Assembly (NCBI RefSeq): GCF_003063265.1
Contig: NZ_NERU01000022.1
Coordinates: 1 to 64,000, forward strand
DNA from: Limnohabitans sp. WS1
GTDB taxonomy: Bacteria; Pseudomonadota; Gammaproteobacteria; Burkholderiales; Burkholderiaceae_C
DNA: 64,000 bases
Direction of reading: 5' to 3'
Below the pieces are notes generated by a model. The model ran no database searches. It worked only from the letters and a program-made list of their open reading frames with translations, and was not told the origin of the DNA. Made by a program: the position numbers and the translations under genes. Shown one piece after another: positions 1-18,273 of the stretch. Each line of letters starts with the position of its first letter. The stretch's first letter is position 1.

Positions 1-1
1 T

Positions 2-127
2 TACATCGCACATCACAACAAAAATCCTAAGCCCTTCATCTGGACAAAAAGCGCTCGCGACATCTTGCAAAAGGTCATTCGTGCCAACAAGCGCTTAAGT
101 TCCAAACAGAATGCAACACTACACTAG
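2..127 (+). mobile_element. IS630-family transposase, C-terminal fragment (runs in from outside the window)
   Basis: Frame 2 is open from the first bases to a TAG at 125-127 and gives 41 residues containing NPKPFIWTKSARDILQKV followed by IRANKRLSSKQ. This is the characteristic end of IS630/Tc1-mariner-type transposases, the DDE enzymes that insert at TA dinucleotides. Only the tail is inside the window; the catalytic part lies to the left. The stop overlaps the 3' end of the antisense HEPN/Toprim gene, whose stop is at 119. A TA dinucleotide at 129-130 could be the target-site duplication, so the element may end at about 128. Recognition is from memory of the family's C-terminal motif; no alignment was run. 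Confidence 0.75.
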
Positions 128-1192
128 GTAGCACTCGATGGCTGCGGCTCGACCGTTGATGTCGGTTCGAACAACACCGCTTGGGCCTAGAGCAGGGAAG
201 TCAAGAAATTGATCGAGGTCGGGCAGCAGCATCGAACGCATGTTGACTGGGAAGGTGAACTTCTGCAGGCTACGATACGCTTCGGCTCCCTCTGCGTCGT
301 TGTCGAAGACGAACACCATGCGATTTTGGACGTCGATCTTGACGAGGCCTTCAGCGAACTTAGCTAGATTCCCGGTACCCGAGAAGGGGTGGCGTTCCTT
401 AATGTCGATAAATCTGAAGAAGTCTTCAACGTCTGGCCGGAGCAGCGAAAGGCCTCGCTTCAGTATGTGTGTGTCGGACGTCCCCTCGGTGGCCAGCATA
501 AAGGTCTGTTCACGGCGGGCGCCGGCGACAAAGTCTTCGTTTATTGCCCAGCCGGCAGCAACGAAATTCCCGTAATCCCAGGCAACGTCCAGCGTAAGGT
601 TTGCAGGGTTCTCGGCGAGGACGCGCAGCACTGAATAAGGAGATAAGAAGCCGATGAGGCCACCAAAGTGGCTGCGTTCAGAGTAGCCGTCGACGTCGCG
701 ATCCTGGTCACCTTGAGGCAGCAAAGCCGCGTCGGGATCGGCCGCCAATCGGGCCCGCCATTGATTGGATCCGGGCTCAATATCCAATCGGTATTCATCG
801 TCAAGGTCAGATACCGGATACCTGCGGATGAACTCGACGAACTTGACAAATTCCAGCCGCTCGGACTGAGTTGCTAATGGCGTGCCATGGCCCTCGTCGT
901 GCCGATCCTTGTCCTGCGTCACCTGCTTTTCGTACTCTGCCTGGACTGTGGCCAGCGAGTACCCAAGTAGCTCGAGTCTTGGCACTATCGAGCCGAGCGA
1001 ACGACAAAAGCAAATTTCCCTTTGGGCAAGATCCTCTTCAGGGTGGTCTTCGTAGTAGTTGTAGTCGATGTTGGGATGGCGGCGATGCTGGCGATCAGAT
1101 TCCTGAAACAGCATTCCGTGGTCGATGCCGATTTCCCACTTATTGAAAGTGAGGGTAATGGCACCCACAGTCAACGTGATTGGTGTCGTCAT
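119..1192 (-). CDS. HEPN/Toprim-type protein, probably truncated at the C terminus by the IS630 element
   Basis: 357 aa. The C-terminal third carries a TOPRIM-like nucleotidyl-transferase/hydrolase core: a glutamate in FMLATEGTSDTHIL (E236), then an acidic strand VFVFDNDAEG (D297-D299). The N-terminal ~230 residues resemble the domain found upstream of Toprim in 'HEPN/Toprim-associated' proteins, usually seen in defence islands. TOPRIM domains of this kind bind metal and are found in OLD-like and RNA/DNA-processing enzymes; the substrate here is unknown. The reading frame ends at ...IECYLV, exactly where the IS630 tail begins on the other strand, so the original C terminus is probably missing. 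Neighbours downstream are other conflict-system genes. The assignment rests on motifs only. Confidence 0.6.
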   Translation of the reverse strand: MTTPITLTVGAITLTFNKWEIGIDHGMLFQESDRQHRRHPNIDYNYYEDHPEEDLAQREICFCRSLGSIVPRLELLGYSLATVQAEYEKQVTQDKDRHDEGHGTPLATQSERLEFVKFVEFIRRYPVSDLDDEYRLDIEPGSNQWRARLAADPDAALLPQGDQDRDVDGYSERSHFGGLIGFLSPYSVLRVLAENPANLTLDVAWDYGNFVAAGWAINEDFVAGARREQTFMLATEGTSDTHILKRGLSLLRPDVEDFFRFIDIKERHPFSGTGNLAKFAEGLVKIDVQNRMVFVFDNDAEGAEAYRSLQKFTFPVNMRSMLLPDLDQFLDFPALGPSGVVRTDINGRAAAIECYLV

Positions 1193-1370
1193 TGCCGGGT
1201 AATTTTTTGAAGAAGAGAAAGATGCAGACTATCGCAGATTAAGCATGGTAACTAGCAACTGGCAACTGGCTCCAAGTGACGGTGACCACGTTTCAAGCAG
1301 CAACATTTGTGTAGAAGCGAGCGGCGTGTTGACGCCGATCCAATATTGACCACCTGGAGGGATGCGAAAA
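1193..1370. other. Intergenic region with a possible IS21-type terminal sequence
   Basis: No gene is visible between the HEPN/Toprim start and the left direct repeat. At about 1327-1352 the string GCCGATCCAATATTGACCA resembles internal terminal repeats of IS21-family elements, but no istA/istB genes or matching opposite end are present, so this is at most a scar. The region must also contain the promoter of the HEPN/Toprim gene; no clear -35/-10 pair was chosen. Confidence 0.25.
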
Positions 1371-1499
1371 CGCCTTGGGCACACACGTTTCACTTTTGGT
1401 TTTTTTCATGCTGCTGTGAATGGCTTGGGCGATGCGCTCCAGGGTGCAAGCGAGTTGGCTGACGCCATACTTCCTCAAACCCTTTCCACGTCACCACAA

Positions 1500-1523
1500 T
1501 GTCGCGATAATGGTATTGCGACA
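1500..1523. promoter_or_regulatory. Palindromic operator 1 of fic (TGTCGC-N12-GCGACA)
   Basis: A 24-bp element with perfect 6-bp inverted arms TGTCGC and GCGACA separated by 12 bp, lying 49-72 bp upstream of the fic start codon. A second element of identical geometry follows 39 bp downstream. The spacing of the half-sites suggests a dimeric DNA-binding protein; the N-terminal winged helix of the Fic protein itself is the obvious candidate (inference). The same element is preserved at 13408-13431. Confidence 0.7.
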
Positions 1524-1538
1524 CTTTTCAGGTATAAA

Positions 1539-1562
1539 TGTCGCAATTTAAATATCGCGACA
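1539..1562. promoter_or_regulatory. Palindromic operator 2 of fic (TGTCGC-N12-GCGACA)
   Basis: Second 24-bp copy with the same arms and the same 12-bp spacer, ending 9 bp before the ATG. A TATAAA stretch (1533-1538) lies between the two operators and could be a -10 box, so binding at both sites would bracket or cover the promoter. The AGGAG at 1562-1566, right at the edge of this element, is the likely ribosome-binding site, so occupancy could also affect translation initiation. Confidence 0.7.
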
Positions 1563-1571
1563 GGAGCCCAA

Positions 1572-2969
1572 ATGGCCAACGCCCCTTTGATGCACGAATA
1601 CCAAGCGGTGGAGGATGTCATCACCCAATATCCTGAGGGTGTCGCGATTGATCAAATCGAGCGAAGCATGCCGTCTGCGCCCAATCGGCGAACTTTGCAG
1701 CGTTGGCTCAATGCGCTAATGGCCCAGCAGCGGATTCGCCGCGAAGGCCATGCCCGTGCCGTGAAATATTGGCGCATCAAGCCAGTTGACTCGGCCGAGC
1801 AGGCCATGCCGCCAGGCACAAGCAGTGTCACGGCGCATGCAGACACGCTGATTCCTCTGTCACCCGAAGCCCGCGAGGTCGAGACACGGGTGCGTCAGCC
1901 CATGATGCTGCGTCAACCTGTAGGGTACAAGCGTGATTTTCTGGACAGTTATCGGCCCAACGAAACGGCCTACCTGAGCCAGGACATTCGAGATGAACTG
2001 CTCTTGCAGGGGCAAGTGTTGGGTGGCCATGAACCCGCTGGCACATACGCCAGGCAACTGGCCGATCGCTTGTTGATTGACTTGTCGTGGAACTCCAGCC
2101 GCCTGGAGGGCAACACTTATTCTTTGCTCGAAACCGAGCGCTTGATTTCAGCGGGCGAGGCCGCCACGGGCAAAAATGCCTTGGAGGCGCAGATGATCCT
2201 CAATCACAAGGGGGCCATTGAGTTTTTGATCGATGCTTCAAATGACATCGACTTCAACCGTTACACCCTGTTGAATCTGCACGCATTGCTCAGCGACAAC
2301 TTGCTGGACGATCCCACCGCCAGTGGTCGTTTGCGTTCAATTCCGGTGGGTATTGGACAAACCACTTTTCTACCGCTGGAAGGCCCGCAACGCATCGAGG
2401 AATGTTTTGACCAAGTGCTGGACACTGCAGCGGCGATCCGTGACCCGTTTGAGCAGGCATTTTTTGTGATGGTGCATTTGCCTTATCTGCAACCGTTTGT
2501 GGACGTCAACAAACGTGTTTCTCGTCTGGCGGCCAATATTCCCTTGATCAAGCGCAATCTGTGCCCGCTGTCATTTGTCGACGTTCCGCAGTCCTTGTAC
2601 ATCAGCGCCTTGTTGGGCGTTTACGAACTTCATCGCACCGAGTTGCTGCGCGATGTGTTCATCTGGGCCTACAAGCGGTCGTGCGCCCGTTATTCAGCAG
2701 TGCGTCAGTCCTTGGGCGATCCTGACCCTTTCCGTTTGCAATTCCGGGAAAACATTGCCGAAGTTGTCGCCCATGTGGTGCGCCAAAAAATGAACAAGAA
2801 ACAAGCTGTGCGCCACATTCAGCAAGTTGCTCACCAAATGGAGGCTCTGCATCGCCCCCGTTTCATTGAGGTCGTGGAAACGCAACTGCTCCATCTTCAC
2901 GAAGGCAATATGGCCCGTTACCGCCTGCGGCCCAGTGAGTTCAGGCAGTGGCAAGAAGCCTGGCGGTGA
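1572..2969 (+). CDS. Fic-fold protein with N-terminal winged helix; active-site His replaced
   Basis: 465 aa from the ATG at 1572, chosen because AGGAG lies 5 bp upstream and upstream in-frame sequence is part of the operator region. Residues ~8-70 form a winged-helix-like DNA-binding domain. SSRLEGN (175-181) matches the class II inhibitory helix motif (S/T)xxxE(G/N). The Fic core motif, normally HxFx(D/E)GNGRxxR, reads [12 protein letters not shown] (307-318): the catalytic His is Gln and both glycines of GNGR are changed (V, K). Canonical Fic proteins AMPylate targets; this version is unlikely to do so by the standard mechanism. It may act as a regulator or on a different substrate. The same degenerate motif occurs in a recognisable Fic subfamily, so this is not a random mutation. 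Confidence 0.85.
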
Positions 2970-3053
2970 TACTGCCGCCCTGCACAGCCAAGGCCCGCGC
3001 CCGATAAAGCATCTGCCCGAACGCTGCCTGCACATGCGCCGAAGGCATGCGAA

Positions 3054-3438
3054 GCCGTGGACTCCAACATCCACTTGTTGGAAGACGTGCACCACACCAC
3101 CACGCCGATCGCGGTGGGTGAGATTTTCAACTAGCCTGTACCAACTGCGCACCGGCCGCCACGGCGCAACCGACCTCTCGCCCGTGTGCATGGACGCAGC
3201 CCTGCACTTTGACACCTGGGTGCCCAACTTCGGCGTGCAAGAGTTCATGCCGCACAGCGAAGAAATGCTGTCAGTCTTCCCGTACGACTATCGCTTTGAG
3301 CGCGGCATGATGCACTGCGGCGAGTCACCCGGCCACGGGGTGGACATCGACGAAAAGCTGGCGGCCAAATACCCCTACCAAAGGGCTTATTTGCCGGTGA
3401 ACCGGCTGCAGCATGATGGGACGCTGTGGAGTTGGTGA
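3054..3438 (+). pseudogene. Mannonate dehydratase (ManD/RspA-like, enolase superfamily), broken C-terminal part
   Basis: One frame reads [13 protein letters not shown] then [10 protein letters not shown] and hits a TAG at 3132-3134. A second frame reads [18 protein letters not shown] and continues through [16 protein letters not shown] and a tail with [15 protein letters not shown] up to a TGA at 3436-3438. Both pieces are diagnostic of the sugar-acid dehydratases that convert D-mannonate to 2-keto-3-deoxygluconate. About 40 residues that normally join the two pieces are missing and the frame changes, and no N-terminal half is present. This is a decayed metabolic gene inside the accessory island and says nothing about current function. 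Confidence 0.8.
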
Positions 3439-3752
3439 GGTGAGCTGAACGTGGATGGGCTGGTTTGCAGCGGAAGCCGTCATCGGCTCTGATCCTTCAA
3501 CTGGCTACCACCAACCAGAAGCGGAATTCCGCTCATTCGGGTTCTAGTTCATCTTAAGACTGCTTGCAGCTCATCGCCAAGTGCAGGTATCTGTTCATGG
3601 CGAGCTGTGAAGACTCGCAGGCAGAAATACAAACCTGAATGAGCCGAAAAACCAAAATCAATCAGATTTTCGTTGCTGGCTAGAAGTGAAAGGATGAGAA
3701 TTCACAGTTCAAGGCCCGAGCCTGAAGGGCGTTAATTAGGCTGGAGCGCATC
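3439..3752. other. Intergenic region, no gene recognised
   Basis: 314 bp between the mannonate dehydratase remnant and the CoiA-like gene. It contains a short palindrome GCGGAATTCCGC near 3522-3533. No coding remnant, RNA gene or convincing terminator was identified. The promoter of the downstream 753-aa gene must be in its right part; GGCTGGAGCG just before 3753 gives only a weak ribosome-binding site. Confidence 0.4.
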
Positions 3753-6014
3753 ATGGCAAAAGTAGAGGTCAAGCTATTAGAACCAACGCAAGAAGAGCGC
3801 ACTTTCGCCGCTTTTGAACCCATGCGCTGGGCAGAGCTTAAAGCGAGCGGAAAGCCGATCTACATTGGAACTCTGGCCGCAACACAAAACGGAAACGCCT
3901 GTGGGTGCCGCTGCCCATCATGTGGCGAAGACATTCAGGCTGTAAACGCAGGTAAGCACGCAAGCCATTTCGCAAGGCCTGGAACCCGTGGCATGTTTTT
4001 CCGGCACACCTCTGGCCATCAACGCGGTGATTGCGGATTCCTGGCGGCTAAGTTAGCCGCGCTGCATTTGCTCATGGAGCAGGGCGAAGTAGATCTACCC
4101 GCTCCCAGAAGGCGGCACTCGCATCTTGGTGTTTCGGGGCAGGTGTATTGGGGTGAAAGCGAAGGCAGCAGATGGCGCGGGCAGATCCAGAACAAGGTAT
4201 GGCTCGATGACCAATCAGCCAAGATTACTTTGGACGACGGCAAAGTCGTCCTTGTTTTGCTACGGGCCAGGTCAGAAATTTCCTGCGATGGCGGAATAGA
4301 TGGGATCATCACCATTGAGGTGGACGATCCGGCAGTAGCGTCCTGGGGTCCGCAGCAAATACTAGATCGCCTTAAACTCAACAACGGATTCGCGTGCTGG
4401 CAGCAGCATTGGGAAGATGATTCGCTCAACGCGGTGGCGGAGCATGCCGCGAAGGACAAAGCAGAAGCAGCTCTGGATGCGCTGCCTCAGGGTTTGGTGT
4501 TGCCAGATGGGCTCACTCAGTTTCAAAAGTCAGAAACCATCCTGCACGCCAAGGTCAAAGAACTTCTTTCAGAAGCAGGCGAGTTTCATGCCCCAGGGAT
4601 GGTGCGGCCTGTCAGTAGGCTAATGGATGACGGCAGCGAAGCCGAGACTACTGCCGAATTGGACAGTGAATACCTCAAGATAACTGATGTTCGTCTCGAA
4701 CACCGGTTGAAAGGCCTGGTGCCGGATGTGATCTGTCAGGCTCAATGTAGCTGCAATCCCGACAATCCAATCACACTCTTGATAGAAGTGGCGGTGACCC
4801 ATCGAGTGGATGAGGCAAAGATGGAAAAAATCAGGTCGGCTGAGCTTGCATGCGTCGAAATCGACCTTTCGTGGATATCCGCTCGGTCGCAGCGGATCAC
4901 GATCGCGCAATTGAAAAGCGAAGTCATCCATGGACTAGACAGCAAGGCCTGGATCTTTAATCCCTTTATCAACGACCGTGTGCGAGCGAAGAGCGCTGAG
5001 CTTGAAATGCATGACATCGCGTGGCGGGCTGAGCGAGAAGCTCAAACCCTGGCGCGTCGGGCTGAGCAACAAGCTCAAACCGATCGAATTCTGTGGCTGA
5101 ACGAGTGTAGGGAAGAGCACCTACTTGAGCTATTTCTTCGTGTTCTCAGGCGGTCATGGGAAGGTAAAGCCGGTGTCTTGAGAGTGGATGACGGCCACAT
5201 GATTGAAGCTGAGGACATCGCCGCACAACTGTCTCTGCGTGGATTTCCCTGTGCCCAGGAGCAGTTCTTCGTATCGCAGGATGGATTGTTGAGCCACCTT
5301 GACGAGCTCCAAAGGTCCCTTCGCGGTCGCTGGTTTGGCGATCGGTTGCGAGGCCTATGGCAAATGAACCGCGATCCAGAGATGCGCAGGTTCATCACCT
5401 TGGGGTTGCTCATGGTGCGGGTGCACAATCCCCGGCTATCGACCGAAGATAAGACGTTGCTTGATGAATTGCGCCAAACCGTTGCGCAAAACGTTCGAAC
5501 CGACAACCAGGCTTACTTGAGGCCAAAGCGCTATGACGCGCTGATTGCCCGGTTGTTCCCTGAAATCCGGGAAGCTTTGAACCATCCATTTGGCACAATG
5601 GAGCCCTTTGAAGAGAAGCAAAAAGTCATACGGAATCAAAAGCGCCTTCAGATGATGGAGGAGGCTCGCCAGCAAGCACACAAGGAAGCGCAAAAGCACA
5701 AAGTGGAGATTGCGCGCGATAGGGCCATGGTCAAAATCGACGATTTTTTGACAAAGGAACGATTGAGCAGATGGGTCACTGATGCTTCGGTGACAAGCCT
5801 GGATGATGTGCTTAAACAGCTTGCGGTACAGCGCTTGGTGGGCAATTACTTGCGGTCCAATTTGGATGTTGTCGCCTTGCTGACAAATGCGTGGGAGGCC
5901 CGCGACAAGCGTCTGAATTTCAGGTCATGGTTTGAGGAGGTCGGTGGTGCCGATCTTGATAGAGCCCAACTGATGTTGGGTGCTCTAAAGTTGGCGGGCT
6001 TGGTGGAGAAGTGA
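3753..6014 (+). CDS. Large CoiA-like protein with Cys cluster and PD-(D/E)XK-type nuclease motif, function unknown
   Basis: 753 aa. Residues 50-57 form a tight cysteine cluster (C50, C52, C54, C57) followed by HFARPG and HTSGHQRGDC (to C94), the layout of the zinc-finger-like N terminus of competence CoiA-type proteins. A nuclease-like core follows: SETILHAKVKELL (260-272), PDVI (D325), then LLIEVAVTHRVDEAKMEKIR (E345), then EIDLSW, matching the D...ExA strand order of PD-(D/E)XK enzymes. Later segments (about 428-445 and 620-670) are charged, alanine/glutamine-rich and probably coiled coil. CoiA-like proteins are associated with DNA uptake or processing. Its place between a Fic gene and a type III restriction system suggests a conflict-related role, but this is inference. 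Confidence 0.6.
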   Translation: MAKVEVKLLEPTQEERTFAAFEPMRWAELKASGKPIYIGTLAATQNGNACGCRCPSCGEDIQAVNAGKHASHFARPGTRGMFFRHTSGHQRGDCGFLAAKLAALHLLMEQGEVDLPAPRRRHSHLGVSGQVYWGESEGSRWRGQIQNKVWLDDQSAKITLDDGKVVLVLLRARSEISCDGGIDGIITIEVDDPAVASWGPQQILDRLKLNNGFACWQQHWEDDSLNAVAEHAAKDKAEAALDALPQGLVLPDGLTQFQKSETILHAKVKELLSEAGEFHAPGMVRPVSRLMDDGSEAETTAELDSEYLKITDVRLEHRLKGLVPDVICQAQCSCNPDNPITLLIEVAVTHRVDEAKMEKIRSAELACVEIDLSWISARSQRITIAQLKSEVIHGLDSKAWIFNPFINDRVRAKSAELEMHDIAWRAEREAQTLARRAEQQAQTDRILWLNECREEHLLELFLRVLRRSWEGKAGVLRVDDGHMIEAEDIAAQLSLRGFPCAQEQFFVSQDGLLSHLDELQRSLRGRWFGDRLRGLWQMNRDPEMRRFITLGLLMVRVHNPRLSTEDKTLLDELRQTVAQNVRTDNQAYLRPKRYDALIARLFPEIREALNHPFGTMEPFEEKQKVIRNQKRLQMMEEARQQAHKEAQKHKVEIARDRAMVKIDDFLTKERLSRWVTDASVTSLDDVLKQLAVQRLVGNYLRSNLDVVALLTNAWEARDKRLNFRSWFEEVGGADLDRAQLMLGALKLAGLVEK

Positions 6015-6089
6015 TGAATTTATTACCCGCCAATTAGGGTCCCGCCGACCAATCAAGACGCACGGGTAGCCACCGGGGATTGATTCAGG

Positions 6090-6269
6090 ACGTGGTCGGG
6101 AAAGCGGCGGCGTCCTAAGTGGCTCAACGACGCTCTTGCTGCAGGGATGGAACTCGCAGAGTCAGCACCTAAAGCGTTGGCTGATTGCGACGGCGTCACC
6201 GCGCTGCCGGTGCCTAAACAGCCGCTGGTAGGCATGAAACGGTCTGCCGCAGCAATGATCGCCGATTAA
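6090..6269 (+). pseudogene. H-NS-like protein, C-terminal DNA-binding tail remnant
   Basis: One frame reads TWSGKRRRPKWLNDALAAG and continues to a TAA at 6267-6269. This resembles the AT-hook-like DNA-binding end of H-NS family proteins (TWSGRGRxPxW followed by L..A...G). The upstream sequence has an in-frame stop just before it and no oligomerisation domain, so only a fragment remains. H-NS proteins silence horizontally acquired DNA. The call depends on a short motif and is moderate at best. Confidence 0.45.
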
Positions 6270-6444
6270 CTGGGTTCGGCAACAGCAGACTTTCGGCGAT
6301 CGGCACTGAGTGTCGCTGTTCAGCCTAAAGAAGCCCCGCGACTCACGACCTCAACTCTTCGTGACCCTGCAACCCAGCGATAAAGCTGCTGTCATCGCCT
6401 GTCAGCGATGGCAGCACTTCAATGCAGCCCACTGAACGGCATCA

Positions 6445-6696
6445 TTACGTCCCCGCGTAAGACCCCCCATCGGCCAACACGTTCTGCCCCGTCATTTAAG
6501 CCGCATGCTGGCTGCACAAGAAGGCGCAGATTGCACCAAACTCTTGCGGGTTGCCGTAGCGCCCGGCCGGAATTTGCGCTTGCTGGATCACGCGCAGCTC
6601 TTCCATGGTTTTGCCCGCTTTTTGGTCCATGGCGGGCAAGGTGGAGCGGATGTGGTCAGTGTGCAGCTGTTTCACGCGCTGGCCTTTGCGCTGATC
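6445..6696 (-). pseudogene. Short-chain dehydrogenase/reductase, C-terminal remnant with an internal stop
   Basis: Reading the minus strand, one frame gives VKQLHTDHIRSTLPAMDQ, a middle segment ending IPAGRYGNPQEFGAICAFLC, then SQHAA, a TAA stop, and MTGQNVLADGGSYAGT ending in another TAA. This is the standard end of SDR oxidoreductases (R.G.PEE.....FL.S..A.Y.TGQ...DGG), with the usual Tyr before TGQ mutated to a stop. The N-terminal Rossmann part and catalytic YxxxK are absent. It is dead metabolic DNA within the island. Confidence 0.75.
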
Positions 6697-6863
6697 ATCA
6701 GCGGGATTTGAGTGTCATCAAGACAATAAGCCGCGAAGGTTTTCCCGGGCTGCATCAGGAATTTCCAAATTGATGCACAGGCTGGGCTTGGACGGCAATT
6801 AGGTTGAAGACGCTTTTGCAACGATTGCAGGTCGTCGGATTCACGATCAAGCCAAAGCAAAAC
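6697..6863. other. Intergenic region, no gene recognised
   Basis: This stretch separates the SDR remnant from the end of the XRE regulator. Together with 6015-6089 and 6270-6444, which also lack recognisable genes, it makes 6015-6863 a zone of decayed sequence rather than intact genes. No terminator with a clear U-tract was picked out. Confidence 0.35.
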
Positions 6864-7277
6864 TTACTTCTTGGCGGGGGCATCTTGCACCTCATTGGCC
6901 TTGGCAAACGTCAGGATCACCTCGCGGATGATCTTGCGCTGAGTTGCGGGGAGCTGCAAAAAGGCGTCGAAGGTTTCGCGCTCCAGATAACCGACGCCCT
7001 CGTCCCAGCGTTTTTCGCGTCGCTTGACTGATTGGCGCACAGCAGTCCCAAACCGCAGAACTTCCGGTTCGATGTTAAGGGTCTCAGCCAAGACCAGCAG
7101 CTTATCTTGCTCAGGAATGGCCTCGCCGCGCAACCAACGAGAGACTGCCTGAAAGCTGACCGAGCGACCCCAGTAATTGGTATTGAACAGCGTCAGCAGG
7201 ATTCCTGGACGTGGCTCCAAACCTGCCGAGATCATGGCTTCACGTAACCTTTGAGCAAATTCAAGCTTGTTATCCAT
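6864..7277 (-). CDS. XRE/Cro-type HTH regulator, likely controller of the type III R-M operon
   Basis: 137 aa. Residues ~5-60 form a helix-turn-helix with FAQRLREAM, then VSFQAVSRWLRGEAIPEQDK, the recognition-helix region of Cro/CI-like repressors, followed by a linker and a helical C-terminal extension ending in Lys-rich ...APAKK. It is transcribed away from mod, with 122 bp between the two start codons. That spacer contains a repeated TCAGTTGAATT element. This arrangement is typical of controller proteins of restriction-modification systems, which delay or balance res and mod expression. That it regulates mod is inferred from position. Confidence 0.75.
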   Translation of the reverse strand: MDNKLEFAQRLREAMISAGLEPRPGILLTLFNTNYWGRSVSFQAVSRWLRGEAIPEQDKLLVLAETLNIEPEVLRFGTAVRQSVKRREKRWDEGVGYLERETFDAFLQLPATQRKIIREVILTFAKANEVQDAPAKK

Positions 7278-7293
7278 GCTTGAACTTTGAATT

Positions 7294-7351
7294 TCAGTTG
7301 AATTTTTATTAAACTTTTTGTTGTACTATTCATTCAAATATCAGTTGAATT
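7294..7351. promoter_or_regulatory. Divergent xre/mod promoter region with repeated TCAGTTGAATT element
   Basis: The 11-bp string TCAGTTGAATT occurs at 7294-7304 and again at 7341-7351, in direct orientation, 47 bp apart. The first copy sits in the short near-palindrome TTCAGTTGAA. The whole spacer (7278-7399) is far more AT-rich than its surroundings. Two identical sites in a divergent spacer are good candidates for binding sites of the adjacent XRE regulator. Confidence 0.5.
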
Positions 7352-7399
7352 AATCATTAAACCGATGCAACCTTATCGGGTTGTGCGGTCAGCCAGTGC

Positions 7400-9439
7400 A
7401 TGCCCAAATCTCTTCTCGAACAACTCCCCGAAATCGTGGCCAACGGTCGCAAACAAGCCGAAAAAATCCTGGAGGGCATCGAAAGCCGTCACCGCGTGGG
7501 ACTGCAAACCCGTGAAGTCGTGCTGCCCGCACGCGACACCAAGGCACAAGACTGGATCGCCCAACAAAACAGAGCCAGCCAACACGAAGTGTTTGCACCC
7601 GGGCAGGCCAGCTTGCTTGACAACCCACAACCCATGCTGTGCGCAGCAACAGAAGCGCCTTGGACGAATCGGCTGATTTATGGCGACAACCTGCTGGCCA
7701 TGGCGGCCTTGTTGGCGGGTGATGACAACACACCGAGCTTGAGAGGCAAAGTCGATTTGATTTACATCGACCCACCATTCGACTCCAAGGCCGACTACCG
7801 CACCAAGGTCACACTGCCGGGTGTAGAGATTGAACAAAAGCCGACCGTCATCGAGCAGTTTGCCTATTCAGACACTTGGAGCGACGGCACGGCTTCGTAC
7901 CTCGCCATGATCACGCCGCGCCTGATCCTGATGCGTGAACTACTGGCCGATACCGGGTCCATTTATGTGCATCTGGACTGGCATGTGGGACATTACGTGA
8001 AGTTGGTGATGGATGAGATTTTTGGGAAAAAGAATTTTCGCAACGAGATCATCTGGCACTACTCCGGATGGAATAAGCAGCTCCAAACAAGCTTCGAAAA
8101 GCGACACGACACTCTGTTCCTGTACGGCAAGTCTGAAGGTCAATACTTTGAGTCCTACTTCGAAAAATGGGAGTCCAAAGAAGAATACGTAAAAAAGAGG
8201 AAACAAAGGATTCACATCGATTTTGATGGTCGCGACTATGTTCTATCCGATGCAGGCAATGGCGAGCGTATTAAGCGTTACCTTGACGATGTAATGAAAG
8301 AAGGTGTGGTCGTTGATGATGTATGGCACATCGACAAACTTAACAACTCTGCATCGGAATCGGTTGGCTATTCAACTCAAAAAACAAAAGAATTGTTAAG
8401 CCGAATCATCAAAGCGTCTTGTCCAAAAGGAGGACTGATCGCTGATTTCTTTGGAGGATCAGGAACTACAGCTGCAACTGCCGAAGATTTTGGCCGCCGC
8501 TGGATTACCACCGACCTCGGCAAGCCCTCTTGCATGATCATGCGCAAGCGTCTGATCGACCAAGAAGCCAATCCCTTTCTCTACCAAGCCATTGGCGACT
8601 ACCAAGTCGAAGCTGCCAAAGCACACTTGGGCCGCGATTTCCGCATCGGTGATTTGTCGCAGATCGTGTTGTCGCTTTATGGCGCGCTGCCCTTGCCATC
8701 CGATGTAAACCCACAGCGCAACCTCGGCCAAATCGCAGGCATGGCTCTCGGTGCAGGCCGGGGCAGCAAAACCCTGGTGCTGGCCGACTCGCCCAACAAG
8801 CTCACCGGCATGGCCACGCTCAAAAAGGCAGTAGCGCAGCGCGACAATCTCATGGGCGGCTGGGACCGTGTGGTGGTGCTGGGTTGGAACTTTGAGCCGT
8901 CGATTGGCGAAACCATCACCGCGCTCAACGACAGCCGCTTGGAAGTACTGGTCATTCCACCCGACCTGATGGACCGCCTCAAGAAAAAAGGCGGCATCGA
9001 CAAGCTGCGTGGGCAAGTGCGCTTCTCGTCGCTGCAATACCTGACCATCGAGCCAATCACGCGCAAAACTTCATCCAACGCAGCCGAAGAAACGCCGACC
9101 GAAACCTTGACCGTCAAGCTCAAAAACTATGTATTGCTCTCACCCGAGGCCATCAACCTGGACGACGCCAACCGCCAAGCATTGCAGCAAGTGGCCAACA
9201 AGGAGCCACTGGCCCTGATCGAATATTGGGCGGTGGACCCGGACTACGACGGCAAAGTGTTCCGCTCGGTCTGGCAAGACTACCGGGGCAACACGGCCAA
9301 CGATGCTGATGTGCTGCGCGTGGTCAAGCAAGCACAAGTGACCGTGCCGGTAAAGAGAGGGCCACGCAAGGTGTGCGTGCGCGTGGTCGATGTGTTTGGC
9401 TTTGAAGCCGAAGTGGTCTCCACCGTGGAGGCCGCATGA
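7400..9439 (+). CDS. mod: Type III restriction-modification system, DNA-methyltransferase (Mod) subunit
   Basis: 679 aa. The beta-class order of N6-adenine methyltransferase motifs is clear: catalytic motif IV DPPF (124-127) in VDLIYIDPPFDSKADYR comes first, and the S-adenosylmethionine-binding motif I DFFGGSGTT (349-357) follows. The region between them (about 215-345) is the likely target-recognition domain. A long C-terminal part is typical of Mod proteins that form Mod2Res complexes. It methylates one strand of an asymmetric site and supplies specificity to Res. The start at 7400 fits the usual N terminus. It overlaps res by 4 bp (ATGA), indicating translational coupling. Confidence 0.9.
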   Translation: MPKSLLEQLPEIVANGRKQAEKILEGIESRHRVGLQTREVVLPARDTKAQDWIAQQNRASQHEVFAPGQASLLDNPQPMLCAATEAPWTNRLIYGDNLLAMAALLAGDDNTPSLRGKVDLIYIDPPFDSKADYRTKVTLPGVEIEQKPTVIEQFAYSDTWSDGTASYLAMITPRLILMRELLADTGSIYVHLDWHVGHYVKLVMDEIFGKKNFRNEIIWHYSGWNKQLQTSFEKRHDTLFLYGKSEGQYFESYFEKWESKEEYVKKRKQRIHIDFDGRDYVLSDAGNGERIKRYLDDVMKEGVVVDDVWHIDKLNNSASESVGYSTQKTKELLSRIIKASCPKGGLIADFFGGSGTTAATAEDFGRRWITTDLGKPSCMIMRKRLIDQEANPFLYQAIGDYQVEAAKAHLGRDFRIGDLSQIVLSLYGALPLPSDVNPQRNLGQIAGMALGAGRGSKTLVLADSPNKLTGMATLKKAVAQRDNLMGGWDRVVVLGWNFEPSIGETITALNDSRLEVLVIPPDLMDRLKKKGGIDKLRGQVRFSSLQYLTIEPITRKTSSNAAEETPTETLTVKLKNYVLLSPEAINLDDANRQALQQVANKEPLALIEYWAVDPDYDGKVFRSVWQDYRGNTANDADVLRVVKQAQVTVPVKRGPRKVCVRVVDVFGFEAEVVSTVEAA

Positions 9440-12417
9440 GCACCGCTGCCGCAAAAGCCGACGACCAACTGGCCCTGGCCGCAGGCCTGACCGCCAAGAC
9501 CAACCAACTCTGCCTGAGGCTTGAATCGGGGGCGGCAGACATTCTAGAAATGGTCACGCCCACCACCGCCGATTTGCTGGCCTGGTGGTTTAGCGAAGAC
9601 ATGGTGATGGCCCGAGGTGGCCTGAACTTCCACGCCGGGCAAAAGCAGGCCATCTTGAACGCCATCGTGGCGCACGAGGTGCTCGGCGCAGGCCTTGAGC
9701 GCTGGTCGCTGTTGGACTTGTACCGCGCCGCTGCCCCTGATGCGCTGCTGACGGGCACACGCTTGAACGAAGTGTCTGCCGACAAGCATGGGCACCCCAA
9801 GTACTGCCTGAAGATGGCCACGGGCACGGGCAAGACCTGGGTGCTGCAAGCGCTGATGATCTGGCAGCTGCTGAACAAAACCGCCGCGCTGGCCGAAGGC
9901 ATTGACGACTCAAGGTTTACCCGCCAGTTCATGGTGGTGGCCCCGGGACTGATCGTTTACGAACGCCTGCTCGATGCGTTTTGCGGCAAGCTCGTTCCAG
10001 GTGGAAACGGCTCCCGCAACTTCGCCAGCTCCGACATGGCCAAGTTTGCCGACCTGTTCATCCCCGAGGCGCATCGCGAATCGGTGTTTGCCTTTGTGCG
10101 CGGCAACGTCTGCAGCAAGAACGAAATCGGCCTCAAAGCCACTGGCAACGGCATGATCGCCATCACCAACTGGCATCTGTTGGCCGAAGGTGGCGATGTG
10201 ACCGAAGACATCGAAGAAGTCGAAGCGCTTGGCGCACCTATGGACCCGCAAGATGTGGTGGCCCAAGTGCTGCCGCTCACACCCGGCCGCGCCACAGGCA
10301 ACAGCTTGGACGTGCTGGACCGCCGCTATGCACGGGGCAATGTGCTGGAGTTTTTGGCGCAGCTGCCCGAGTTGATGGTGTTCAACGACGAGGCCCACCA
10401 TATCCACGAGTTCAAACGCGAAGGCGAAACGACCGAGGTGGAATGGCAAAAAAGCCTGAGCCGCATCGCCCAAAGCAAGGGCCGCCGCTTTGTGCAGGTG
10501 GACTTTTCGGCCACACCCTACAACGACGTGGGCTCGGGCAAGAACAAACGCAAGGTGTTCTTTCCGCACATCGTGACCGACTTTGACCTGAAAAGCGCCA
10601 TGCGTGCCGGGCTGGTCAAGTCGCTGGTGCTGGACCGCCGCAAGGAAATCGGCGCATTGCCTTTGGAGGCGTTGGATTTCAAGGCCGATCGGGACGAATC
10701 GGGTAAGCCGACTCTCGGCGAGGGTCAGCGCGTCATGCTGCGGGCGGGGCTGACCAAACTACGCAAACTCGAAAAAGACTTTGCCACCATCGACCCGCAT
10801 CGCCGCCCCAAGATGCTGGTGGTTTGCGAAGACACCACCGTGTCGCCGCTGGTGGCCGAATTTTTGTGCGACCAGGAAGGCTTAAACGACGACGAGGTGA
10901 TGACTATCGACTCGGGCAAGAAAGCCGAACTGGGCCCCAAAGATTGGGAGCCAGTGCGAGAGCGACTTTTCAGCGTGGATAACCACGCCACACCGCGTGT
11001 GATCGTGAGCGTGCTCATGCTGCGTGAGGGCTTCGACGTGAACAACATTTGCGTCATAGTGCCGCTGCGCTCCAGCCAAGCGCAAATTTTGCTGGAGCAA
11101 ACCATCGGGCGCGGCTTGCGTCTGATGTGGCGTGACCCGGAGTACAACGACATCAAACGAGAAAACCGCGAACTGATCAAAGCCGGTAATGAACCTGGCA
11201 GTTTGCTGGATGTGTTGTCCATCGTTGAACACCCGGCATTTCAGTCTTTCTATGACGATCTGATCATGGAAGGCCTGGCGGGCACCACGGGCGATGACGG
11301 CGGCGATGGTGGCTCAGCCACCGGTGACATCATTGAAGCCGAGCTACGCGAAGACTTTCAAGCCTTTGACTTCGGCATTCCGTTCATCTTGCAAGAAGCA
11401 GACGAACTGCGTGACCACAAGCAAATCGATGTGACCACCCTGCCCGCCTTCGAGGCCATGCCTGCGGATCAGCTCAAGAGCATGCTGGGCCAAGGCGACA
11501 CCTTTGTCTCACAGGATCTGCAGAGTTCAACGCTGTTCGGTGATTACCGTGTAAACGGCGCGGTGATGAACGTGAGCGGCTACAACGAGTACCTGTCGCG
11601 CCTGACAAGGCGCATCAGCCAAGCGCTGAGCGAGCCACTGCCCAAGGGCAACAAGATCGCCACACACTTGGCCAAGCCCTATCTGCAAGTGAACACCGCC
11701 GAGTTGACCGGATGGATTGACGACTACATCTGGACGCAATTGTTTGTGGGCACCTTTAACCCGTTGGAAGATGAAAACTGGCGCTTGCTGCTGTTGCCGC
11801 CCGTGGTGGACCACATCACCAAGGTGTTTGCAATGGGCCTGCTGGAATCAGAAGAAAAGCACACCACAGGCCAGACCGAAGTACATTTACGATTCCTGAG
11901 CGAAGTGCCAAAGCTCATGGTGCGCGAAAGTGCATCGCTGGAAGTGTCCAAATGCATTTACACCCGACTGGGCTGGCCCAGCCGCAACGGCGGTTTAGAA
12001 AAGGCGTTCATCCATTGGGCGCAAAAAGACGCGCTGGTGCTGGCCTTTTGCAAGATCAGCGAGAACCGCCACACTTTTGCCCGCCTGCGCTACGTGAAGG
12101 TCGATGGCCTACCCGCTTTCTATTCACCCGACTTTTTGGTGCGCACCGCCGACGCGGTGTACCTGGTCGAAACCAAAGGACAGGAACAAACCATCCACCC
12201 CAACGTGCAACGCAAACTGAAAGCCGCACTGGCCTGGTGTGAACGCATCAACAACCTGACAGAAGAACAACGCGGTGGGCCGCCTTGGCACTATGTGCTT
12301 TTGGGTGAGACGATGGTTTATGAGTGGCAGGGCAAGAACGCTCACTTAGCAGAGCTGCTGGACTATGCGCGACTGCGGCCGCTGGGGGGGGCTTCGTTGC
12401 AGCAGCGGTTGATTTGA
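9436..12417 (+). CDS. res: Type III restriction endonuclease (Res) subunit
   Basis: 993 aa. It is a superfamily 2 helicase fused to a nuclease. Walker A is ATGTGKT (128-134), motif II is DEAH in MVFNDEAHHIHEF (318-321), motif III is SAT in VDFSATPYN (358-360), and the later motif VI region reads EQTIGRGLRLMW. Near the C terminus YSPDFLVRT followed by YLVETKGQ (about 895-913) is the PD-(D/E)XK endonuclease site. The helicase part drives ATP-dependent communication between two inverted, unmethylated sites before cleavage. All key motifs are intact, so the enzyme is probably functional. It starts inside the end of mod. Confidence 0.92.
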   Translation: MSTAAAKADDQLALAAGLTAKTNQLCLRLESGAADILEMVTPTTADLLAWWFSEDMVMARGGLNFHAGQKQAILNAIVAHEVLGAGLERWSLLDLYRAAAPDALLTGTRLNEVSADKHGHPKYCLKMATGTGKTWVLQALMIWQLLNKTAALAEGIDDSRFTRQFMVVAPGLIVYERLLDAFCGKLVPGGNGSRNFASSDMAKFADLFIPEAHRESVFAFVRGNVCSKNEIGLKATGNGMIAITNWHLLAEGGDVTEDIEEVEALGAPMDPQDVVAQVLPLTPGRATGNSLDVLDRRYARGNVLEFLAQLPELMVFNDEAHHIHEFKREGETTEVEWQKSLSRIAQSKGRRFVQVDFSATPYNDVGSGKNKRKVFFPHIVTDFDLKSAMRAGLVKSLVLDRRKEIGALPLEALDFKADRDESGKPTLGEGQRVMLRAGLTKLRKLEKDFATIDPHRRPKMLVVCEDTTVSPLVAEFLCDQEGLNDDEVMTIDSGKKAELGPKDWEPVRERLFSVDNHATPRVIVSVLMLREGFDVNNICVIVPLRSSQAQILLEQTIGRGLRLMWRDPEYNDIKRENRELIKAGNEPGSLLDVLSIVEHPAFQSFYDDLIMEGLAGTTGDDGGDGGSATGDIIEAELREDFQAFDFGIPFILQEADELRDHKQIDVTTLPAFEAMPADQLKSMLGQGDTFVSQDLQSSTLFGDYRVNGAVMNVSGYNEYLSRLTRRISQALSEPLPKGNKIATHLAKPYLQVNTAELTGWIDDYIWTQLFVGTFNPLEDENWRLLLLPPVVDHITKVFAMGLLESEEKHTTGQTEVHLRFLSEVPKLMVRESASLEVSKCIYTRLGWPSRNGGLEKAFIHWAQKDALVLAFCKISENRHTFARLRYVKVDGLPAFYSPDFLVRTADAVYLVETKGQEQTIHPNVQRKLKAALAWCERINNLTEEQRGGPPWHYVLLGETMVYEWQGKNAHLAELLDYARLRPLGGASLQQRLI

Positions 12418-12589
12418 GGAGGGCGAGTTAGTGGATGGGTTCAGGCCAACAAAACTAAAGTCAGCTATGCAGCGGGAGCGGACATTGGCGTTGGTCCGCA
12501 GGAGGGCAAATATCGGCCAACAGTAGTTACTTGGCTTTGGTGCCAGGCCCTGGGCCAGTATGCCAATTTGGCTTGGGCTTGCTTGCTGA
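12418..12589. other. Spacer between convergent res and greA-like genes
   Basis: 172 bp with several G/C-rich short inverted repeats, for example around CCAGGCCCTGGGCC near 12541-12554, that could act in termination from either side. No U-tract follows, so no terminator is claimed. Nothing coding was recognised. Confidence 0.3.
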
Positions 12590-13072
12590 TTAATTGACCC
12601 GCAGCACCTCAAATTGCTGTCGAATTGAAGCAACCTGTATCCACATCTCATCACCCTCGTATTTACCCAGCATGGCCCTACCCAAAGGGGCTTCGCTGCT
12701 GATGACCTGAATGAGCTGTGCGCCGCTGACCAACTTCATGCTGCCCCCATCCGGCCCGAGAAAGAGCAGTTGCTGCTTGTCGGCGGAATCGACTAGGAAG
12801 ACCAGCGCGCCGAGCTGTATACCTTTGCTGGCGTCATAGGGACGCGGGCGGAATTGGTGCCAATTAGCAAGCGCCTGGCGAATGTCTTCAGCGCGCCGAG
12901 CATGGCCGGTGGCAAGGTAGGCGGCTTCGAGTCCAAGTGTGTCGTATTTGTTTTCGGCAATGTTTTCTTCGTGAGTCGCCGCTTCATGGGCCGCACGCAC
13001 GGCCTGTTCTGCTTGCAGAAGGTCCTCGGCGAGCCGGTCTAGCACCTGCTGCTGCAGCAAGAATTTATCCAT
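12590..13072 (-). CDS. GreA/GreB-family transcription elongation factor-like protein
   Basis: 160 aa from MDKFLLQQQV; an upstream in-frame Met would add eight residues, but the Gre-like coiled coil begins directly at MDKF. Residues 1-80 are a helical, Glu/Ala-rich hairpin; residues ~85-150 match the GreA/GreB C-terminal FKBP-like domain (GIQLGALVFLVD, LLFLGPDGG, VISSEAPLGRAMLGK, GDEM). True Gre factors rescue backtracked RNA polymerase through acidic residues at the coiled-coil tip. This protein is a family outlier and could instead act like Rnk or another secondary-channel regulator. It sits at the right edge of the accessory island, convergent with res. Confidence 0.75.
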   Translation of the reverse strand: MDKFLLQQQVLDRLAEDLLQAEQAVRAAHEAATHEENIAENKYDTLGLEAAYLATGHARRAEDIRQALANWHQFRPRPYDASKGIQLGALVFLVDSADKQQLLFLGPDGGSMKLVSGAQLIQVISSEAPLGRAMLGKYEGDEMWIQVASIRQQFEVLRVN

Positions 13073-13277
13073 GATGAAAGGTCGGCACATCGCCAAGAGA
13101 GGGGCAGGTTTTGATTATGAGGGACTCCACCAGCCTTCGACGCTTGTGTTGGCTGCAGCTTAACTTCCGCTATGCGCACTGTCCTCTCGCTCATTTCCGT
13201 GCATCGAACGGTAGGAACCGGCCGACCGCCGCAGGCCATGATCAATGACTGCTTGGCTGCGCCCTCTGCGCCCCCAG

Positions 13278-13564
13278 CGCCTTGGGCACAGGCGGGTCCG
13301 CTTTTGGCTTCTTCCATGCTGCGGTGCGTGGCTTGGGCGCTGCGCTTTAGGGTTCAGGCGTGTTGGATGACGCCATATTTCCTCAAATCCTTTTCTCGGA
13401 ACAACAATGTCGCGATAAAAGTATGGCGACACTTTGTCGGCATCAATGTCACCATTCCACCTTTCGCGACAAGAGCGCACTTGGCCAATGCCCTTTTGAC
13501 ACAGGCTCACCAAGCTGTGGAGGATGTCATCACCCAATATCCCGAGGGTGTCGCGATTGATCAA
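13278..13564 (+). repeat. Right copy of the imperfect direct repeat: remnant of fic promoter and first codons
   Basis: Co-linear with 1371-1655. It retains one perfect operator (13408-13431) and a degraded one (13447-13471, left arm TGTCAC, spacer one base longer). The fic start ATG is replaced by TTG, and the codons read [19 protein letters not shown] then PEGVAIDQ before CVWRD and a TGA at 13580-13582. Nothing else of fic follows. The copy shows many point differences from the left one, so the duplication is not recent. Confidence 0.85.
13408..13431. promoter_or_regulatory. Preserved orphan fic-type operator (TGTCGC-N12-GCGACA)
   Basis: Same arms and spacer length as the two elements upstream of intact fic, but now lacking a downstream gene. 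Its perfect arms inside otherwise drifted sequence suggest either selection or recent homology. If the winged-helix Fic protein binds these palindromes, this site would still be occupied in the cell. Confidence 0.55.
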
Positions 13565-13586
13565 TGTGTGTGGCGTGACTGATTGC

Positions 13587-14693
13587 TCAGTCACCCAAAA
13601 CTCTTTGAAAAAACCAGAAGGTGCCCACAGCCAACGAAAGATACGAGGCCAAACGGGTGGTTTGGGTCAGGACAACCGGTCCACTCAATTGCCGAATAAG
13701 CCACATCACCAGCGCAGCGCTGAAAGCAACGACCAACTGTCCCAGTTCAATGCCCACGTTAAAGCCAAGCAAGCTCATGGCCTTGCCCATCCCGCCCACA
13801 CCCAGGTCGGTCAAAGCACCGGCCAGACCCAATCCATGAATCAAGGCGCAGACAAAAACCAATGTCAAACGCACAGCAACCGCCCCCGTCAAACTGCGAT
13901 GAGCTGACCAGCGGTCAAACACGGCCATGCCCACGATGGTGGCGGCAATGGCGGGCTCAACCCAAGCGCCGGGCACGTCCAAGCCATACACAGCACAGGC
14001 CACCAGCATCACTGCGTGACCTGCCGTGAAACAGGTGAGCACCAGCACCACTTGGCGCAAGCTCCATGCTGCTGCCAGCACCACCAGCAAAAACAACAAA
14101 TGATCGGCACCCGAAAGCACATGCCAAGCCCCCTGCTGCACTTGCTGCACCAAGCTGGCCCAGGCAGAGGGCAAGACAACCCCCTGTGGATGCTCGGGTG
14201 TCAATGTCATGAGCTGAGATTGCGCCCCACGCGTGACGGCGATGTGCTCCGTTTGCTCATCGGCATTTGTGCCAAACAAGCGCAATCCAAGCTGGAGATC
14301 AGTGACCAGCGCTGGTATCGCAAATCGTCCCAGCACCACCAAGTGGGTGGATGGTGCAAAGGGGGTGCTGTCAGGCGGTGCTGTGTTGAGCAAGATGCCT
14401 TCCAGCACACTGCGCCCTTGGTCACTGTCCAATGTAACGCCCCGCTTGATTTGCGACTCAATGCTCGCGCCATGGGCTCGCAGTTCCTGGATGGAAAGCA
14501 GGCCATCTTGGTCGTCATCAAATCCTGTCAATGAGGACACGGGCAGTGACAGCACCATGTATGCACCATCCCCCACGATGTTCAAGGTCCCCCGTTGCGA
14601 CACCACCCAATGCGCATGGGCTGTCGACATGGCAAAGACTGCCAGCAGGCATGTCAAAACCGATGCCCGCAACCATGAGTTCATGCTCGTCAC
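13587..14693 (-). CDS. HupE/UreJ-like membrane protein with a periplasmic EF-hand-like loop
   Basis: 368 aa. A signal peptide (about 1-27, ...AMSTAHAHW) leads to a periplasmic domain holding a calcium-type EF-hand loop, DDDQDGLLSIQELRAH (about 59-74). The C-terminal half (about 185-365) has roughly seven membrane segments and the family motif GAWHVLSGADHLLFLL, with further conserved histidines in TAGHAVML and ALIHGLGLAG. HupE/UreJ proteins are linked to nickel or other metal handling; this variant is a larger form with an extracytoplasmic domain whose substrate is unknown. Its ATG overlaps the stop of the upstream YHYH gene (ATGA), so the two are one operon. Confidence 0.8.
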   Translation of the reverse strand: MTSMNSWLRASVLTCLLAVFAMSTAHAHWVVSQRGTLNIVGDGAYMVLSLPVSSLTGFDDDQDGLLSIQELRAHGASIESQIKRGVTLDSDQGRSVLEGILLNTAPPDSTPFAPSTHLVVLGRFAIPALVTDLQLGLRLFGTNADEQTEHIAVTRGAQSQLMTLTPEHPQGVVLPSAWASLVQQVQQGAWHVLSGADHLLFLLVVLAAAWSLRQVVLVLTCFTAGHAVMLVACAVYGLDVPGAWVEPAIAATIVGMAVFDRWSAHRSLTGAVAVRLTLVFVCALIHGLGLAGALTDLGVGGMGKAMSLLGFNVGIELGQLVVAFSAALVMWLIRQLSGPVVLTQTTRLASYLSLAVGTFWFFQRVLGD

Positions 14694-15679
14694 ATCTTGC
14701 CTTTGACGCAGCGTTGCAGGTGAGGGAAGGTATCGGTGGCGTAGTAGTGGTAAATGCCCTTGGGAAATTCAGGTGTGACGCCGGTCCGACCATTGCATTC
14801 GTCCAGATCGCCCAAACCGGCCACGTATTCATAGTCTTGCGTGAAGGTGCCCATGGCATAGGTTGAAGTGTTGGCAGGGCGATTGACATCAGGCGTCGCT
14901 TTGGTGCGGTAGCTGGATGTGACCGTCTTGACCGCAGAGCTGGCGTCGCTTGCGACTGTGTAGCCATAGCGTGCGTAGATTGGAAAACCATCCGCAGCCC
15001 AACCAATCAGGGTCATGGCCTTGTTTCCCTTGCTCAGCTTGGTCAGCAAGCCCTCTGGAACACCGTGGTAGTGGTACATCCCGTTGGGCTGAACGTGCGC
15101 GTTGCTGCTGTCGGTTCCCCATTTAAAGAAGGTCTGACCCAAAGCCTCCAGACTCCATGCGCCCAAAGGCTGGCCGCCTTGTTGGCAATTGCCAGCGTCA
15201 CTGCAAGTGCCCGCTGTGCCCGGGTCAAAGGTGATGCCATTCAAAGCCACGCCAGGCTTGTCCCTGGCACCGACACGCGGCGTGACGACCGCTGTCGCGA
15301 CAGGTGTCACGGTGACAGAGGCGGCGATGGATTGTGCAGAAATGGGGTTGGGGTTGTCGTTGTTGGGGAATGTGCCCACATCGTGGTCTGGCAGGCCGTT
15401 GGCGGTCAGCGAACGCAATGCGCTGCTGCAGGACCAAGTTGCCGTGGCGGTGGCATTGACCGACGCCGAGCCATTGAACGCACTGGTGGCGTAGTCGCAG
15501 AGCACGCCAGCCGTGCTGGTGGCGGTCGTGCTGGTATCCGTGGTCGCTGCAGTTGTTGTTGCCGTGGCATCGTCACCGCCGCCGCACGCCGTCAATCCCG
15601 CCCCTGTCAAAACGGTGGCAACGAGCAGCAAAAAGCGTACCTGGGATAAGCTGACGGAAGGAGTTTTTAATGCATTCAT
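14690..15679 (-). CDS. YHYH-domain lipoprotein
   Basis: About 329 aa from MNALKTP; in-frame ATG and GTG starts further upstream would add 11-13 residues but leave the signal peptide less standard. The N terminus is a lipoprotein signal with lipobox LTAC followed by GGGDD and a Thr-rich linker. The body has the YHYH signature MYHYHGVPEG, then GWAADGFPIYARYGY and, near the end, KGIYHYYATDTFP. YHYH proteins are secreted or surface proteins of uncertain function, with a likely metal-binding His/Tyr motif. It is cotranscribed with the HupE-like protein and diverges from a BaeSR-like two-component system, which may control it. Confidence 0.8.
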   Translation of the reverse strand: MNALKTPSVSLSQVRFLLLVATVLTGAGLTACGGGDDATATTTAATTDTSTTATSTAGVLCDYATSAFNGSASVNATATATWSCSSALRSLTANGLPDHDVGTFPNNDNPNPISAQSIAASVTVTPVATAVVTPRVGARDKPGVALNGITFDPGTAGTCSDAGNCQQGGQPLGAWSLEALGQTFFKWGTDSSNAHVQPNGMYHYHGVPEGLLTKLSKGNKAMTLIGWAADGFPIYARYGYTVASDASSAVKTVTSSYRTKATPDVNRPANTSTYAMGTFTQDYEYVAGLGDLDECNGRTGVTPEFPKGIYHYYATDTFPHLQRCVKGKM

Positions 15680-15911
15680 GATCACTGATGTGTTTGTGTT
15701 GATTGAGGTCATGGCCACAGCAGTGTCAAAGGCACCGCTGCATCAGGGTGGGCAACAAGGTGGTCGTTTGTGTTGTTGTCTTCGATCCAATCACGCTCTT
15801 AGTTTCAACAAACACCTGTGCTGTCGCGACTGAATTATGGAAAAACACCGTGGTGAAAATATGGGCAAAACCTCACAATCTCCTCACAATTTCGGAGTCC
15901 AATAGCAGGCC

Positions 15912-18061: not shown

Positions 18062-18273
18062 AGACAATCCAAGCCAATCTCATGACGGGACAGTCAGCAG
18101 CGATCCAGACCCTTTGCACGATCGGCCTGTCGCCGGTCTGCCCAAGGCCCTTGTCACCATGAAAAATCCCGTCCTTTTTGACACATTGTGTTCTGCTGCA
18201 CAGAACCCTGGACTTGCGTGCGTCCAACACAGCAAAAGACGGCCAGGAATCCGCGACAATCGGCGCTCTTTCG

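Follow-up and report, generated by a model that had tools for sequence, protein, structure and literature searches.

A manD–slmA insertion hotspot in Limnohabitans with probable tandem stacking of two haplotypes

Genes and gene relics in an insertion hotspot

The window, the first 64,000 nucleotides of contig NZ_NERU01000022.1 (C15) of Limnohabitans sp. WS1 (the source genome), carries intact genes and gene relics between the contig edge and slmA (Table 1). Two co-linear homologous segments lie at 1371–1655 and 13278–13564. Their end-to-end alignment had 232 identical columns out of 287 (81%), with a local score of 298 against a maximum of 28 among 200 base shuffles, which confirms the original prediction of two such segments about 11.6 kb apart (11.9 kb between their starts, 11.6 kb from the end of the first to the start of the second). 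Both copies together are the sole two matches of the repeat in the 4.60-Mb genome at E ≤ 0.001, and when the 285-bp repeat was searched at family level, matches came from 5 of 299 genomes, the source genome among them and the other four only in pieces of 24–46 bp. Identity is uneven along the repeat, with 81 of 101 columns identical at 1371–1470, 78 of 102 at 1471–1571 and 19 of 28 at 1572–1599. At 1600–1655 (13509–13564 in the right copy) 54 of 56 columns are identical, while the rest of the repeat reaches roughly 77%; gene conversion between the copies was considered for this block and not adopted, as a fic relic in another genome (G029) is about equally similar there in an alignment judged by eye.

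Table 1. Features of the window from the contig edge to slmA. Letters L and R denote the two versions of the hipA'–fic fusion; handles beginning with G are Limnohabitans genomes and other handles with L and a number are loci in them.
Feature	Position	Strand	Evidence
IS630-type transposase 3' end, at contig edge	2–127	+	translation; annotated as IS630 in 5 of the 8 tblastn matches listed
HEPN/Toprim N-terminal domain protein	119–1192	-	PF18871, E 8e-52
hipA 3' relic, left copy	1371–1470	-	78% to 3' end of intact hipA in G012 (L053 4946–5045)
24-bp inverted repeat before fic, operator-like	1500–1523		read from the sequence
Second 24-bp inverted repeat before fic	1539–1562		read from the sequence
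fic, L type, 465 codons, open	1572–2969	+	PF02661, E 9e-10; 96% to G015 over 1938–2989
slmA 3' end with flank, relic (slmA')	2989–3051	-	79% over 63 bp to G015 (L052 8706–8768); shorter or equal matches in further genomes
manD relic (manD'): parts of the second half with two internal deletions, and downstream flank	3049–3486	+	similarity to manD; intact manD on contig C18
753-codon ORF, family unassigned	3753–6014	+	no family match at curated level
Relic, end of short-chain-dehydrogenase-like gene (name by reading), from another locus	6314–6662	-	90% to G012 (L051 8544–8891)
Relic, end of transporter-like gene (name by reading), from the same other locus	6664–6774	+	88% to G012 (L051 6505–6616)
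Helix-turn-helix protein, travels with the R-M cassette	6864–7277	-	PF01381; within match 6844–8029 to G015 (L050)
Type III Mod methyltransferase	7400–9439	+	PF01555; MTase_III, E 4e-76
Type III Res	9436–12417	+	PF04851; REase_III, E 1e-26
Protein with GreA/GreB C-terminal domain	12590–13096	-	PF01272, E 5e-7
hipA 3' relic, right copy	13257–13345	-	84% to end of intact hipA in G012
First inverted repeat, right copy, largely kept	13408–13431		sequence and alignment
28 codon positions of fic, R type, TTG replacing ATG	13481–13564	+	pairwise and multiple alignment
HupE/UreJ-like and YHYH genes; the cassette terminates the right fic relic	13587–15718	-	PF13795, PF14240; 91% match at another locus in G012
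dacC-like peptidase, at the site in several relatives	18178–19554	+	matches from 18230–18248 on; related ORF (L093:1703–3100) is Peptidase_S11
slmA, right border gene of the hotspot	19596–20219	-	NF007015, E 7e-82

In the genus Limnohabitans the convergent genes manD and slmA flank an insertion hotspot, which the island occupies. We named both genes by NCBIfam models and located them by similarity in 90 Limnohabitans genomes, finding manD in 64 of them at E ≤ 1e-100, source genome included. Among the 63 others with manD, 49 had manD and slmA on one contig, and the pair was collinear in 48 of these, with G009 as the exception. Two genomes (G034 and G059) were counted as having no slmA place though they have partial slmA matches on other contigs, which leaves the count of one-contig pairs unaffected. 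The gap between the two gene matches in the 48 collinear genomes measured at most 100 bp in 20, 101–1000 bp in 6 and 1.4–72.6 kb in 22. This comparison of relatives bore out the view of the region as an accessory island: some genomes have an empty site, and G003, G008 and G015 (Limnohabitans sp. T6-5) carry a single hipA'–fic unit with other cargo. Entry at a fic locus, which had also been proposed, does not agree with these data, as the insertion site is the manD–slmA junction and hipA'–fic is itself earlier cargo.

Across 101 ORFs in 19 inserts, the genes found at the site vary and include transporters, sulfatases and amino-acid enzymes, a dacC-like peptidase, PIN toxins and hipBA, with a few defence-like genes. 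A longest-first script had listed 106 ORFs; before alignment, several that looked like pseudogenes or antisense frames were removed or replaced manually. The site is thus a general insertion hotspot. A dedicated defence hotspot was considered and found no support, the Pfam families listed (25 of 44 and 25 of 55) being largely transport and metabolism; for the first cargo set of 51 ORFs, PADLOC at 1e-10 gave four families, each with two members. The window contains no tRNA and, in 1–20000, no Rfam match, and profile scans of its proteins with Pfam, NCBIfam and PADLOC found no integrase.

Both border genes are intact in the source genome, slmA in the window and manD on contig C18, whose end lies 548 bp past the manD match. 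C18 and C20 share their final 127 bases. From synteny and the IS sequence at both ends, C18 and the contig of the window are probably neighbours across an IS copy, C20 being another possible partner. The HEPN/Toprim gene stands at this contig edge beside the IS630-type end, and PADLOC models gave no match to it.

Between the repeats, adjacent Mod and Res genes would encode a type III R-M system, as the original prediction had it. The R-M cassette (6844–12419) also stands alone at another locus of G015 (L050) with 81–88% identity, where the middle of Mod (8030–8438) has no match; it is therefore not tied to the repeats. That G015 locus has about 3 kb between Mod and Res (L050 8602–11577) that are missing from the window. 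Decayed genes had been expected between the repeats and are indeed there, namely the relics of slmA, manD and the short-chain-dehydrogenase-like and transporter-like genes. The 'CoiA-like' nuclease fared otherwise: the 753-codon ORF to which that name had been given had no CoiA match in Pfam at E ≤ 1 and none in NCBIfam or PADLOC at 1e-3. The two relics at 6314–6774 derive from genes that in G012 flank two other ORFs (L051 5671–9471), and in G012, a close relative, the HupE–YHYH cassette lies elsewhere on the chromosome (L027 17501–19837). Judging by these matches, the stretch 6314–6774 appears to be material from a second variable site carried into the manD–slmA site, and these fragments, the R-M cassette and HupE–YHYH move independently of the repeats.

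Two hipA'–fic fusions of different descent

Each copy of the repeat is the 3' end of hipA fused to the fic promoter and the first fic codons. G012 shares 97.6% identity with the source genome across the adjoining 2.5 kb and 95% across 15.4 kb, and its DNA matching 1371–1470 and 13257–13345 forms the 3' end of an intact minus-strand hipA (L053 4892–6160). The matching DNA in G029 is likewise the 3' end of an intact hipA, with HipA_C and Couple_hipA domains (L070 453–1682). In the right copy this similarity begins 21 bp earlier than the repeat as first delimited at 13278. In a multi-genome alignment the hipA similarity ends near 1470, where the upstream region of fic begins. The first ~100 bp of each copy, which had been taken for fic promoter, are hence hipA 3' coding sequence on the minus strand, and we rejected the promoter reading for this upstream part. 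The left copy does run into a full-length fic as predicted, and the right copy keeps 28 codon positions beginning with TTG. The expectation that the right copy had kept the operators held for the first inverted repeat, which is largely intact, but not for the second, which is degraded. Similarly, the count of about 28 codons stood but a loss of the ATG in the right copy alone did not and was rejected, the TTG being common to the related copies in G003, G008 and G029.

The hipA'–fic fusion occurs once each in G003, G008 and G015 and twice in the source genome. Since these three genomes and both copies here have it in common, we infer that the fusion has a single origin and that both repeats descend from one event, in which fic with its operators would have come to sit within hipA, leaving the hipA 3' end joined to the fic promoter. 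The fusion would later have divided into an L version, represented by the left copy and G015, and an R version, represented by the right copy, G003 and G008 and, for the fic part, also G029.

To compare the copies, we defined as informative those sites at which left and right differ and G015 differs from agreeing G003 and G008. Between 1480 and 1599, the left copy agreed with G015 and the right copy with G003 and G008 at 21 of the 25 informative sites; none showed the reverse and 4 showed neither. Hence, from the operator onward the left copy resembles G015 and the right copy resembles two other species. Upstream of 1470 left and right differ at five sites, three of them uninformative and two informative, and both informative ones are reversed, with left equal to G003 and G008 and right equal to G015 (2 of 2 against 0 of 21 downstream; Fisher test 1/253, resting on two sites). 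Identities in the hipA part are 81% between left and right, 86% between left and G015, 85% between left and G003, 88% between right and G015 and 84% between right and G003, so that the L and R lineages are not separated there (each copy 84–88% identical to G003, G008 and G015). Taken together, the copies look like old versions of different descent, not like a recent duplication made in the source genome.

The related fic copies in G003, G008 and G029 are also broken. A PIN gene and a MazE-like gene follow the fic relic in G008, a near-identical PIN ORF follows that in G003, and the relic in G029 is truncated ahead of an ORF named by reading as release factor 3. G015 fic is without a segment equivalent to window 1627–1937 and its frame is split. 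Over 1938–2989 the left fic is 96% identical to that of G015, while the core stretch to the right reaches only 72–80% and manD 93%; the left fic was therefore probably exchanged recently.

The slmA'–manD' scar and the proposed tandem join

Behind the left fic, the 3' end of slmA is joined to a manD fragment in a scar (2989–3486) in which the two BLAST matches overlap by 3 bp (3049–3051). A 6-bp microhomology at this point was considered and dropped, the matches overlapping by just 3 bp. The manD' relic differs from the manD of the source genome at 26 of 308 bases, with 7, 1 and 18 differences at codon positions 1, 2 and 3 (third-position excess p = 2e-4) and 4 of 102 residues changed; the pieces closer to the scar (3049–3114) are only about 75–82% similar to manD. 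This pattern suggests that manD' diverged mostly as a working gene, as expected of a recently broken orthologue from another species, and it speaks against a recent copy of the resident gene. A tree of manD' with 35 orthologues (36 rows, 308 columns) had none of its 33 inner branches well supported and named no donor. None of the other genomes read at the locus has the same scar. At window position 2989 the flank of fic meets that of slmA; the two flanks stand about 64 kb apart in G015 (C4 109921 and 173706; L047 11921 and L052 8706), and with this distance between them the window appears to retain the uninterrupted form of the junction. The resulting order, manD ... hipA'–fic–slmA' / manD' ... 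hipA'–fic' ... slmA, matches a tandem join of two manD-to-slmA segments.

Our preferred reading, to which we give a probability of roughly 0.55, is that a foreign hotspot haplotype was joined in tandem beside the resident one and added instead of replacing it. An L-type segment from another Limnohabitans species, reaching from manD to the 3' end of slmA, would have been joined to the resident R-type segment, and the observed scar would be the join of the two haplotypes. This could have come about by natural transformation in which one join was homologous and the other illegitimate, or by a circle inserted through one crossover in the hipA'–fic repeat. DNA uptake may be possible in the source genome, which has a ComEC-family gene, as have 10 of 14 control genomes. 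Later insertions (the IS630-type element, the R-M cassette and HupE–YHYH) and decay would then have led to the present layout, and each repeat would be the fossil of one haplotype, not an excision device. A caveat of the tandem join is the shortness of the slmA relic (63 bp, 79%).

More tentatively, a single reciprocal crossover in the hipA'–fic relic may have brought in the haplotype from another species, in the form of a closed circle or a tandem equivalent, with such hotspots growing by stacking. The left and right copies would then be reciprocal hybrids whose exchange point falls within 1449–1480, and closure of the circle would account for the slmA'–manD' scar. The reversal of both informative sites upstream of 1470 agrees with one crossover there, resting on these two sites.

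Piecemeal insertion appears common at this site, given the relics from at least one unrelated locus (6314–6774) and the cassettes found elsewhere in relatives, so the L unit with a slmA tail could also have arrived once and the manD fragment and later cargo independently beside it. We regard such separate insertions as unlikely, because the touching pieces are exactly the two borders of the hotspot and stand in the order predicted by a tandem join. Much the same standing, if slightly lower, goes to the idea that the manD-to-slmA segment was duplicated in tandem long ago in a common ancestor, after which G015 would have kept L, G003 and G008 R and the source genome both. The identities in the hipA part, 81% between left and right and 84–88% to the other species, would be expected from this history as well. 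However, manD' is only 8% from a functional manD and changed mostly at third positions, which speaks against an old duplication and makes the join look young. In addition, manD' is the only second manD match in the source genome, and the genus search at E ≤ 1e-100, which would miss shorter fragments, found no comparable fragment in another genome (G011 has a second manD copy at 77%).

The original prediction had explained the layout by duplication at a fic locus in the source genome, with repeats that recombine to remove or swap the cargo. The direct orientation of the copies, their longest exact shared stretches of 26 and 21 bp and the existence of single-unit relatives fit this history, which is nevertheless very improbable. 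From the operator onward the copies resemble different species (21 of 25 sites, none reversed), the single-unit relatives have other cargo and no sign of excision, and the R-M cassette moves alone. Neither loss nor swap of cargo through the repeats was seen in the loci read, most of the 90 genomes having been searched by similarity only, and this part of the prediction found no support. With exact stretches of such lengths, excision through the repeats should be possible but rare. An assembly error joining two haplotypes or two organisms is the least credible explanation. It would draw on an assembly of 48 contigs, a window contig that begins in a repeat and a layout known from assembled contigs alone, yet the scar and both units lie within one contig of 72.6 kb, the contamination estimate is 0.7% and the relics carry deletions of their own.

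Hotspots that lack mobile elements are usually explained by a swap of cargo between two conserved borders. The repeats here are gene relics of 81% identity and no integrase was found among the window proteins scanned, which sets the locus apart from an integrase-type island with att repeats. Hotspots bordered by core genes have been described and explained by homologous recombination at the borders (Oliveira et al. 2017, PMC5635113). The manD–slmA site shares with them the conserved border genes (48 of 49 collinear), a fast turnover of content and empty sites, and the window itself has no tRNA, but it differs in the relics of both border genes inside the island, suggesting that a haplotype was probably added beside another rather than swapped. 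Natural transformation has been reported to yield tandem merodiploids in Streptococcus pneumoniae (Johnston et al. 2013, PMC3784515), where a new junction likewise connects two directly repeated versions of one segment. Those are repeat-bordered copies of 100–900 kb of the recipient chromosome, whereas the segment here measures about 20 kb, its join lies outside the repeat, and its copies are 81% identical and resemble different species and thus are not copies of the recipient's own segment. Core-gene-bordered hotspots are thus known, and what is unusual here is that two haplotypes were probably stacked in tandem; the history of the site can also be read unusually well. If confirmed, stacking would be a second growth route for such hotspots, and internal relics of border genes would be a signature that can be searched for in other genomes. 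The titles and abstract openings listed by a search on Limnohabitans comparative genomics and horizontal transfer, made by topic and not by site name, do not mention the manD–slmA site.

The Fic protein and its upstream repeats

The Fic protein of the left unit matches PF02661 and is similar by phmmer to FICD structures, but differs in its motif. Fic AMP transferases have the catalytic motif given as HPFx[D/E]GN[G/K]R in PMC2686095, while the window protein reads QPFVDVNKR, with Gln where the HPF...GNGR motif of FICD has His in the alignment. Among 25 homologues examined out of 80 loci, 22 showed the motif pattern, and these 22 have Gln at this place. The subfamily is open and widespread, so the protein may have a non-standard activity. 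On plasmids, fic matched 15 records with 60–80% identity, and the source genome has a second fic-like stretch that is 69% similar (C21:3718–4240).

The half-sites TGTCGCNAT or ATNGCGACA are present within about 330 bp upstream of fic in 14 of the 25 homologous loci examined (L110–L119, L122, L129, L142 and L168), at several of them as identical spaced pairs. The inverted repeats and their half-sites likely represent a conserved fic operator.
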